Shown here: positions 52,565 through 56,210 of the stretch, piece after piece
Position numbering within the stretch: position 1 is the stretch's first letter
How the letters are laid out: every line of letters begins with the position of its first letter
Assembly (NCBI GenBank): GCA_020027475.1
Contig: JAHRAZ010000128.1
Coordinates: 62,001 to 126,000 of the forward strand
Direction of reading: 5' to 3'
DNA length: 64,000 bases
DNA from: Microthrixaceae bacterium
GTDB lineage: Bacteria; Actinomycetota; Acidimicrobiia; Acidimicrobiales; Microtrichaceae
Program-made: the position numbers and the translations under genes
The notes under the pieces: generated by a model
Databases searched by the model: none
Told to the model about the DNA's origin: nothing
The model's input: only the letters and a program-made list of their open reading frames with translations

Positions 52565-53126
52565 AACACCGCCCCTGCCCATGCTCTCTGCCGATCCCTG
52601 CATAGGTGAGGTCTTGCTCAGCGATGAGCAGATCCAGGCCCGGGTGCGCGAGATCGGGGAGCAATTGACCATCGAGTACGCGGGCCGCGCACCGTTGATG
52701 GTCTGCGTGCTCAGAGGGGCGTATTCGTTCCTGACCGACCTGTCCCGATCGATCGACCTGCCAGTGGAGATCGACTTCATTGCCGTGTCGTCATACGGAT
52801 CGAGCACCCGGACCTCTGGAGTCGTTCGACTGGTGAAGGATCTGGATGTGGATCTGACCGGACGGGACGTGATTCTGATCGAGGACATCGTGGACACCGG
52901 CCTGACCCTGCGATACCTGCGCCGTAGCCTGGAAGCCCGTGGTCCGAACAGCTTGGAAGTGTGCACTCTGCTGGCCCGCGAGTCGGCAGACCTTGAAGGT
53001 CTCGGTGTGAAGTATGTGGGATTCACCATCCCCGGAGACTTCGTGATCGGTTACGGCCTGGATGTGGACGAGCGCTACCGGAACCTCAGGTACCTCGCCA
53101 GCTATGAACCGCAGGACGATGCGTGA
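52557..53126 (+). CDS. hpt: Hypoxanthine-guanine phosphoribosyltransferase
   Basis: 189 aa from GTG 52557; ATG 52581 also fits. PRT features: [53 protein letters not shown] (PRPP loop) and [24 protein letters not shown]. It salvages hypoxanthine and guanine. GTGA overlap with folE; ftsH, which separates them in most actinobacteria, is not here. Confidence 0.94.
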
Positions 53127-53761
53127 ACGCTGAATCGACCGGCGACCTGAACGTGCCCGAGCCGATCGGGACCGTCGAAGGTCTCTCCGAAGGTGTTGAC
53201 CTTGAGCGGATCGCTGCCGCGGTCAGGGAGATCCTTGCCGCCATCGGTGAGGATGTTGAGCGCGATGGGCTGGTGGAGACGCCCGCTCGGGTGGCCCGCA
53301 TGTACGCCGAAGTCTGCTCCGGACTGCACTCCGATCCCGCTGCACACCTCCGCGTGACCTTCGACGAGGATCACGATGAGATGATCATTGTGCGCGACAT
53401 CCCCTTCTACTCAATGTGTGAACACCATTTGGTCCCGTTCTTCGGCAACGCACACCTTGCCTACATACCCAATGAAGCGGGGCGGGTGACTGGGCTGTCC
53501 AAACTCGCAAGGTTGGTGGACGGCTTCGCCAAGCGCCCGCAGGTGCAGGAGCGGTTGACCACCCAGGTGGCCAACGCGATCGTCGACTCGCTCGACCCTC
53601 GTGGGGCCGTTGTGGTGATCGACGCGGAACATTTGTGCATGTCGATGCGCGGTGTCCGCAAGCCGGGAACGTCCACCGTGACCTCAGCGGTCCGGGGAAT
53701 ATTCCGCGACGATGCCGCTGCGCGCTCCGAGGCGATGCGTCTCATCCACGATGGTCATTGA
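53123..53761 (+). CDS. folE: GTP cyclohydrolase I
   Basis: 212 aa from GTG 53123. [40 protein letters not shown] (zinc ligands and active-site His), [23 protein letters not shown] and the C-terminal [14 protein letters not shown] with the third zinc ligand. It makes dihydroneopterin triphosphate from GTP, the first folate step, feeding folB, folK and folP nearby. Confidence 0.95.
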
Positions 53762-53785: not shown

Positions 53786-54724
53786 ATGCCAGGCAATCCC
53801 CGGGTTCTGCGGCTTGGTCACCGGCTCCTGCCAGATGGGCGGCCAACTTCGGTGAACATCATGGGGATATTGAACGTGACTCCCGACTCATTCTCCGACG
53901 GCGGTGATTACAGCGATGTGGGCAGTGCGCTGCATCGCGCGGAAACCATGGTTGCCGAGGGTGCTTCGGTGCTCGACGTCGGAGGTGAGTCCACTCGATT
54001 CGGAGCCGAGACCGTCAGTGTTCAGGAGGAAATCCGCCGGGTGGTTCCAGTGATCGAAGAGCTCGCCGCTGCATCGGAATCCGGCCTGTTCGGAGGCGAA
54101 CGATTTCGAATTTCGGTGGACACCCGGAATCGGGAAACGGCGCAAGCGGCCGTGAAAGTCGGCGCGAGTCTCCTCAACGACGTGACGGCGTCGATGTGGG
54201 AGGAAGCTGCCGAATTGGGGGTTGGATGGGTGGCAATGCACATGCAGGGGCGTCCGCAGACCATGCAGGTCAATCCGGCTTACGCCGATGTTGTGGACGA
54301 AGTCCGGAGATTCCTGGCGGAGAAGGCCGAGCTGGCCGAGGCTGCCGGTGTGGAGGAAGTCTGGGTTGATCCCGGAATTGGATTCGGCAAGACGATCTCT
54401 CACAACGTCGCCCTTCTGGCGAATCTGGACCGGATTGTTGCTGATGGAGTGCCGTTGTTGATCGGCACGAGCAGAAAGAATTTTCTGGGGACTCTTGCGA
54501 CGTGGTCGGATGCTGGGGGCACTCAGTTTGACGATTCCGCTGATTGGGCGGAACATGTGGGTCAGCAAGTGCCCACTGAGACCGATGACCGGCTCGAGGG
54601 TTCGCTGGTTTCCGCATCTTGGGCCATGATCCAGGGTGCACAGATGTTTCGAGTGCACGATGTGGCGTCCACAAGATCGGCTCTGGCCGCAGTGGCAGCC
54701 GTAGACGTCGCTCCCAAGGAGTAA
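53786..54724 (+). CDS. folP: Dihydropteroate synthase
   Basis: 312 aa. VNIMGILNVTPDSFSDGG, VLDVGGESTRFGAE, SVDTRNRETAQAAVKVGASLLNDVTA, MHMQGRPQTMQ, VWVDPGIGFGKTISHN and IGTSRKNFLG cover the standard sites. A ~30-residue acidic insertion (DAGGTQFDDSADWAEHV) after the SRK motif makes it longer than most. It joins pABA to the pterin diphosphate. The pseudo-phosphatase gene starts 3 nt later. Confidence 0.95.
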   Translation: MPGNPRVLRLGHRLLPDGRPTSVNIMGILNVTPDSFSDGGDYSDVGSALHRAETMVAEGASVLDVGGESTRFGAETVSVQEEIRRVVPVIEELAAASESGLFGGERFRISVDTRNRETAQAAVKVGASLLNDVTASMWEEAAELGVGWVAMHMQGRPQTMQVNPAYADVVDEVRRFLAEKAELAEAAGVEEVWVDPGIGFGKTISHNVALLANLDRIVADGVPLLIGTSRKNFLGTLATWSDAGGTQFDDSADWAEHVGQQVPTETDDRLEGSLVSASWAMIQGAQMFRVHDVASTRSALAAVAAVDVAPKE

Positions 54725-54727
54725 GAA

Positions 54728-55243
54728 ATGGCCGCGAAAGGCAAGTGGGCACAGGGAATTCAACCCCGCCACTTCAGCTGGATCATTCAGGATCAGATCG
54801 CGATTTGCGAGCGTCCTGGTGGATTCGGCGCGAACCACCGCAAGGTGCGTCGTCAGGAGGAGATCATCTGGGTGAGGGAACAGAGTTTCGACTTCGTCGT
54901 CTCGCTTTCCTCGGCACCGCACAATCTTCACAACTATGACGAGATGGCAGTGCGCTGGCTGCACTGGCCATATCCCGCCACGGATGAGATTCACCGTTAC
55001 CTGTCCGACTGTTATGGGGAGCTGCAGCGGTTGCTGGGAGACAAGCGCCGCCTGCTCATGCACGCCGATGAGGTGTCCGAGCGGTTGATCGGTTTCCTCG
55101 CCGGCTATCTGATCTGGTCCGGAATGGTTCCGGAGTCCCCGCGTGCGATCACCGTCATCGAGCGGATCTCCGGTCGACAGATCGGCGCCACTGGCCGCTT
55201 CATAGTTTCCGAAGCACAGAAGCTCTCAACGGCCGACGCCTGA
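54728..55243 (+). CDS. Dual-specificity-phosphatase-like protein with Cys-to-Ala active site, in the folate operon
   Basis: 171 aa from ATG 54728, 3 nt after folP. The arrangement follows a DSP/PTP fold: FSWIIQDQIAICERPGG, EEIIWVREQSFDFVVSL, a possible general-acid region WLHWPYPATDE (Asp86), then LLMHADEVSERLIGFLAGYLIWSG. The last segment is the HCx5R loop with Ala113 in place of Cys and Arg119 retained (H-A-D-E-V-S-E-R). If so, it can bind a phosphate but cannot form the phospho-cysteine intermediate. I know of no such protein in bacterial folate operons. Confidence 0.65.
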   Translation: MAAKGKWAQGIQPRHFSWIIQDQIAICERPGGFGANHRKVRRQEEIIWVREQSFDFVVSLSSAPHNLHNYDEMAVRWLHWPYPATDEIHRYLSDCYGELQRLLGDKRRLLMHADEVSERLIGFLAGYLIWSGMVPESPRAITVIERISGRQIGATGRFIVSEAQKLSTADA

Positions 55244-55272: not shown

Positions 55273-55737
55273 ATGGTTGACCCATCTCCTCAATCACAGC
55301 CAGAGCTGATGTCACAGCCAGACCTGGTGTCACAGCCAGACCTGGTGTCACAGCCAGACCTGATCCTTCTCGAGGGCCTGCGGGTGATGGCAGTCGTGGG
55401 AGTTCTTCCCGAGGAACGCGAGCGGGAACAGCTGCTGCAATGTGATCTGGCGCTGCGGGTGGACCTGTCGGCCGCCGGGGTGAGCGACGACCTCGATGAC
55501 ACCGTTGACTATGGCTCGGTGACCGATGCCGTTGTGCAGACCCTCCGAACGGCTTCGCCGTTGCTCCTGGAGCGCCTTGCTGCGCAGGTAGCTTCCACCG
55601 TGTTCGCTGTGGATCAGAGTGTCGAGTCCGTTGAGGTGATCCTGCGGAAGCTGCATCCGCCGGTTCCGCACGACCTTGGCAGTTCCGCTGTGCGGATAAC
55701 CCGACGTGCCGGTTCGTCCGGTCAGACGGACCCATGA
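55273..55737 (+). CDS. folB: Dihydroneopterin aldolase
   Basis: 154 aa. The catalytic fold begins LILLEGLRVMAVVGVLPEEREREQLLQCDLALRVD, with DDTVDYGSVTDAVVQTL and the active Lys-containing RKLHPPVP. The N-terminal ~30 residues (PQSQPELMSQPDLVSQPDLV...) are a low-complexity extension made of four 18-bp repeats. It converts dihydroneopterin to 6-hydroxymethyl-dihydropterin. ATGA overlap with folK. Confidence 0.93.
   Translation: MVDPSPQSQPELMSQPDLVSQPDLVSQPDLILLEGLRVMAVVGVLPEEREREQLLQCDLALRVDLSAAGVSDDLDDTVDYGSVTDAVVQTLRTASPLLLERLAAQVASTVFAVDQSVESVEVILRKLHPPVPHDLGSSAVRITRRAGSSGQTDP
55294..55365 (+). repeat. Four 18-bp tandem repeats encoding SQPDLV in folB
   Basis: Units begin at 55294, 55312, 55330 and 55348 (TCACAGCCAGACCTGGTG and close variants), encoding SQPELM, SQPDLV, SQPDLV, SQPDLI. 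The copy number could vary between strains by slippage. Confidence 0.95.
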
Positions 55738-56210
55738 ACTCCTCAGTGGCATCCTCGGTTCGCCGTCGGACCTTTCTGTCGGTCGGCTCCAATCTGGGTG
55801 ATCGGGTCAGCTTCCTCAGGCAAGCCATCGAGTCCCTGCCCGATGTGGTCGCGGTATCTCCGGTGTATGAAACCGCGCCCGTGGGTGGACCCGATCAGGA
55901 TTCATTCCTGAACGTTGTCGTCGAGCTCGATACCGACATGATGCCGCTCAACCTTCTGGGAGTGTGTCACCGCATCGAGGCCAATGCCGAGAGGGTTCGC
56001 GAGGAACGCTGGGGGCCAAGAACGCTGGACGTGGACATCATCTGGATGGCTGACATGGAGATGGACACCGAGCGATTGACCATCCCACATCCTCGTTGGA
56101 AGGATCGGCGATTCGTGTTGGCGCCGATGCGGGATCTGGCACCCGAACTCGTATCGGATGAAGACCTCAGACTGTCCGATGGTTCGGTGACACAGACCGG
56201 AGATCTTTGA
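55734..56210 (+). CDS. folK: 2-amino-4-hydroxy-6-hydroxymethyldihydropteridine pyrophosphokinase
   Basis: 158 aa. LSVGSNLGDRVSFLRQAIESL, SPVYETAPVGGPDQDSFLNVVVEL, RIEANAERVREERWGPRTLDVDIIWM and TIPHPRWKDRRFVLAPMRDLAP contain all the ATP and pterin contacts. It pyrophosphorylates hydroxymethyl-dihydropterin for folP. Confidence 0.95.
   Translation: MNSSVASSVRRRTFLSVGSNLGDRVSFLRQAIESLPDVVAVSPVYETAPVGGPDQDSFLNVVVELDTDMMPLNLLGVCHRIEANAERVREERWGPRTLDVDIIWMADMEMDTERLTIPHPRWKDRRFVLAPMRDLAPELVSDEDLRLSDGSVTQTGDL

Follow-up and report, generated by a model that had tools for sequence, protein, structure and literature searches.

A near-universal protein of Acidimicrobiia with a predicted dual-specificity phosphatase fold and a degenerate P-loop, encoded in a folate gene cluster but probably not a folate-synthesis protein

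Introduction

What does a protein that resembles a phosphatase without its catalytic cysteine do between two folate biosynthesis genes? The question is raised by an open reading frame, here called X, in a 64,000-nucleotide stretch of Microthrixaceae DNA (contig JAHRAZ010000128.1, positions 62,001 to 126,000; hereafter, the window). A preliminary description based on the sequence regarded X as a pseudophosphatase of the dual-specificity phosphatase (DSP) type that binds a phosphorylated pterin or a partner, or that regulates flux, in folate synthesis. We assessed this proposal using gene order, distribution, predicted structure and conservation. The features concerned are as follows.

53123 to 53761, + strand: folE, GTP cyclohydrolase I, context (PF01227, 256 bits)
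53786 to 54724, + strand: folP, dihydropteroate synthase, context (PF00809 and TIGR01496, above cut-off)
54728 to 55243, + strand: X, 171-residue predicted DSP-fold protein of a family without a name (open reading frame, ATG start)
54800 to 54871, + strand: near-invariant stretch AxCERPGGxGxNHRxVRRQEEIIW of X, residues 25 to 48, which includes the Arg-rich beta-alpha loop (class conservation)
54962 to 54988, + strand: HWPYPATDE of X, residues 79 to 87, at the acid-loop position (profile alignment to 25xa)
55061 to 55084, + strand: degenerate P-loop HADEVSER of X, residues 112 to 119 (sequence; family motif H-x-[DE]-x3-[DE])
55273 to 55737, + strand: folB, dihydroneopterin aldolase, context (PF02152, TIGR00525)
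55734 to 56210, + strand: folK, HPPK, context (PF01288)

Gene order, selection and distribution

The genes around X are arranged as tilS-hpt-folE-folP-X-folB-folK, with FolE, FolP, FolB and FolK confirmed by Pfam. The open reading frame exists as first described, with HADEVSER at residues 112 to 119, as does the folE-folP-X-folB-folK order; the 3-nt spacing attributed to the operon applies to the folP-X junction only (folE-folP, 24 nt; X-folB, about 29 nt; folB-folK, overlapping). Relatives of X are encoded at 73 loci, and dN/dS between X and its relatives is 0.11–0.17, equal to or lower than that of folP, folB and folK in most comparisons. Hence, X is a real gene rather than a chance reading frame, and it is under strong purifying selection.

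Two further features of the neighborhood and genome were observed. The start of the folB reading frame contains an in-frame 18-bp tandem repeat (55294–55364; 3.9 copies, SQPDLV units), which is present as about five diverged copies in one relative (L031). The window's own genome also carries a second dihydropteroate synthase-like gene (G000:C143:104588-105358), and two copies are common in Acidimicrobiia.

X was detected in 56 of 61 close relatives. Of 149 Acidimicrobiia genomes sampled, 142 gave a match to X, in each case a single one, and they include genomes of about 1 Mb. In a phylum-wide sample, 40 of 296 genomes were matched, and beyond the class the matches were confined to six distant homologues, all belonging to family f77. 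A plasmid collection yielded no match. Three absences (G087, G147 and G175) seem to result from the contig ending, as folP runs to its edge, and two other genomes without X (G107 and G119; 87%–88% complete) are also without FolE, FolP and FolB; none of these five was scored as a loss. X is accordingly a near-universal single-copy gene of Acidimicrobiia.

Predicted fold

X matches no family model in Pfam or NCBIfam. The Pfam DSPc model was not reached above its gathering score by any of 42 family members (best E 0.036), and X itself gave no match. When the family profile was compared with solved structures, the best match was 25xa (Dual specificity protein phosphatase family protein; E 7e-7), which was also found with the single sequence in a PDB search (E 0.013). 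Phospholipase A2 matches in the latter search were weak and judged to be due to chance. The profile alignment pairs the HCRAGYGR loop of 25xa with the HADEVSER loop of X, in agreement with the initial placement of HADEVSER at the phosphatase loop position.

An AlphaFold2 model built from 42 aligned relatives (mean pLDDT 88.3, pTM 0.85) is likewise DSP-like. Foldseek and VIA-align searches with this model returned DSP/PTP-fold proteins throughout the matches listed, with DUSP23/VHZ and KAP on top, and superposition on human DUSP23/VHZ (2img) gave a Z score of 18.0 and 2.1 Å over 144 residues at 17% identity. The structural comparison against DSPs thus upholds the proposed relationship, and the model shows a predicted DUSP23/VHZ-like DSP fold for X. 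It shares its whole fold with DUSP23/VHZ and with small atypical DSPs (KAP/CDKN3, Tk-PTP and SsoPTP), and aligns with DSPs from end to end; a Nudix fold, as in FolQ/NudB, was not found in it.

A degenerate P-loop and an Arg-rich loop

None of the 126 aligned relatives has an intact HCx5R motif. Across this set the loop reads H-x-[DE]-x3-[DE], with no relative carrying the P-loop Gly at position 116. Among the class sequences, His112 and an acidic residue (D/E) at position 114 are each found in 120/120, the acid at 118 is kept in 114/120, and Arg119 is present in 97/120. The preliminary reading of an HCx5R loop with Cys changed to Ala and Arg retained is therefore true of X itself but does not hold as a family rule. 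Comparison of orthologues at position 113, to see whether they carry Cys or Ala, showed variable occupancy (G, A, Q, R, K, N and other residues), and only 2 of the 120 class sequences have Cys there; the conserved positions are His112 and the acids at 114 and 118. The idea that deep orthologues might keep Cys was also pursued and set aside: the sequences that carry Cys (five from f77 and one each from f38 and f7) never have the Arg as well, and no sequence among the 126 relatives combines Cys113 with Arg119. In the distant f77 homologues the loop is HCDRVSEW or close to it, such that Cys is present, Trp takes the place of Arg, and both acids are kept. The acid-loop motif WPYPATDE is present as described, although the general-acid Asp of 25xa aligns to Ala84 of X rather than to an Asp; position 84 is non-acidic in most orthologues, and a shifted Asp86 is common.

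On the evidence of these alignments, the X loop is rebuilt rather than merely dead, the catalytic machinery of DSPs is gone, and the Cys and Arg of the old motif are dispensable in the family. STYX-like phosphate binding at the old P-loop site is unlikely because conserved acids occur there and the Gly is absent.

A second conserved element is the Arg-rich beta-alpha loop, H37-R38-x2-R41-R42, which is near-invariant. R38, R41, R42, E45 and W48 are conserved in 121/121 class sequences, and R38, R42 and W48 are also conserved in the distant family f77. By topology, this stretch would correspond to the beta2-alpha1 loop and would lie adjacent to the acidic loop; the Arg loop is the weaker part of the AlphaFold2 prediction (mean pLDDT 63 for residues 31–40). 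The same topological place is occupied in PTEN by the pbeta2-palpha1 "arginine loop", which forms a positively charged patch (PMC4700475).

Comparison with known phosphatases and pseudophosphatases

The combination of residues in X differs from that of the DSP-fold proteins that it resembles. Compared with DUSP23/VHZ-type DSPs, X is without the Cys, the P-loop Gly and the general acid, and has an acidic P-loop and an Arg-rich insertion after beta2. 25xa has an N-terminal W-x-I-x-x-x-LA pattern in common with X, but its HCRAGYGR motif is intact and its acid loop reads LPD. PTEN has a positively charged loop, but it also has a C2 domain and is active as a phosphatase. STYX and MK-STYX, like X, each have a dead DSP domain conserved in evolution, with the catalytic Cys replaced (by Ala113 in X). 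In STYX proteins the motif still has its Gly, Ile, Ser and Arg, and a single Gly-to-Cys change is enough to make STYX active again (PMC8269279). X, in contrast to STYX, is without the P-loop Gly, has conserved acids, and does not conserve the Arg.

Relationship to the folate pathway

The folE-folP-X-folB-folK order is kept at most loci, which explains the earlier assignment to folate synthesis. X might, for example, handle or bind dihydroneopterin triphosphate or monophosphate, or regulate FolE-FolB flux. In support of such a role, most Acidimicrobiia have X flanked by folP and folB, and dephosphorylation of dihydroneopterin triphosphate, the step after FolE, has no known gene in most bacteria (PMC1971073). 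The likeness of X to the FolQ/NudB dihydroneopterin triphosphate pyrophosphatase is confined to being a candidate for this pathway step. FolQ/NudB belongs to the Nudix family, whereas X is DSP-like in fold and occurs independently of the pathway.

Several genomes separate the gene from its neighbors. No match to FolE, FolE2, FolP, FolB or FolK was found in seven X-carrying genomes (G189, G067, G090, G098, G170, G194 and G111), as scored by HMM, most of the seven being drafts. G189 is one contig and 99% complete. In G170, G194 and G111, the neighboring fol genes have disappeared, yet X retains its position with hpt on one side and panC on the other; in the genomes of family f7 it follows tilS. 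A maximum-likelihood tree of X requires five label changes to account for the seven genomes without fol genes, of which at least four are forced by well-supported branches. In several lineages X has outlasted a natural loss of the fol genes, and its presence is therefore not bound to theirs. The converse is seen in two genomes of one family: G073 (one contig) and G174 encode zincin-tilS-hpt-folE-folP-folB-folK without X, which could not be found anywhere in either genome, even with the family profile. In f77, folP and folB are adjacent, with the X homologue elsewhere. Orthologues outside folate operons, named in the preliminary description as grounds for refutation, do exist, which tells against the folate role.

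Together with the loss of the catalytic Cys and the acidic P-loop, these patterns speak against the proposed binding of a phosphorylated pterin or regulation of flux, and a function in de novo folate synthesis is improbable. Of the initial idea of a pseudophosphatase in folate synthesis, the pseudophosphatase part stands (DSP fold, no HCx5R in 126 relatives) and the folate part does not: X is probably not a folate-synthesis protein, and its operon position, which we take as inherited gene order and not as evidence of function, was misleading in this respect.

Other observations on these lineages were as follows. At the f7 loci (L170–L180 and L182–L184), hpt and the fol cluster have mostly been lost or moved from this place, and several f7 members, in which none of the folate genes tested is present, should be folate auxotrophs, judging from their gene content. 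Two f30 loci (L165 and L166) have a folE-folP-folB-folK cluster from which X is cleanly missing, and folP and folB overlap in L165. The f77 homologues at L104–L108, with HCDRxSEW-type loops, lie near sugar-transferase- and glycoside-hydrolase-like reading frames (judged by eye); the neighbors of f77 homologues provided no usable clue to function. The literature searched contained no report of DSPs in Acidimicrobiia or of folate auxotrophy in this class.

Proposed function

We consider it somewhat probable (roughly 0.55) that X is a conserved non-phosphatase DSP-fold protein with a binding or regulatory role, which is located in the fol cluster by ancestral gene order. According to this explanation, the Acidimicrobiia ancestor would have carried X within a tilS-hpt-fol-pan gene cluster. 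The old active-site cleft would be a pocket lined by the acidic loop (H112, D/E114 and D/E118). Beside it would stand the Arg-rich beta2-alpha1 loop, which is invariant. If X binds an anion at all, be it nucleic acid, a phosphorylated ligand or a membrane head group, the Arg loop rather than the former P-loop would be its binding site. The acidic loop, in turn, would position either the Arg cluster or a partner of positive charge. We infer that X works as a binding or regulatory protein, although a new enzyme would account for the conserved polar residues in the old active site just as well.

X could be an enzyme that uses the DSP scaffold for new chemistry, with H112, D/E114, D/E118 and the Arg loop forming a new catalytic or metal site. 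The most highly conserved residues (H112, the acids at 114 and 118, R38, R42 and Y70) belong to segments that form the lining of the cleft in the DSP fold, and the gene is retained in 1-Mb genomes; its sequence, however, matches no known enzyme family, and its absence from two complete or near-complete genomes indicates that it is dispensable there, making this reading possible but unlikely. A stronger version, in which X is a class-wide, near-essential family that turned its Cys phosphatase site into a new center for catalysis or metal binding (His and two acids facing the Arg loop), with a reaction not known for the fold, is decidedly unlikely. Folates are still required by folate auxotrophs, and X may alternatively act on folate cofactors or pterins once these have been made, in salvage, storage or transport, in which case it would stay after pathway loss. 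Its location in the fol cluster and the auxotrophs' continued need for folates are consistent with this, but there is no sequence hint of pterin binding in X, and f30 has the synthesis genes without X; downstream folate use is accordingly very improbable.

Implications

Pseudophosphatases have been studied mostly in eukaryotes. X represents a bacterial pseudo-DSP found in nearly all members of one class, down to 1-Mb genomes, with its own set of conserved residues; the family has no name. X clearly illustrates how operon context can mislead, and, as a near-universal gene without a name in an environmental bacterial class, it is a good target for function discovery.
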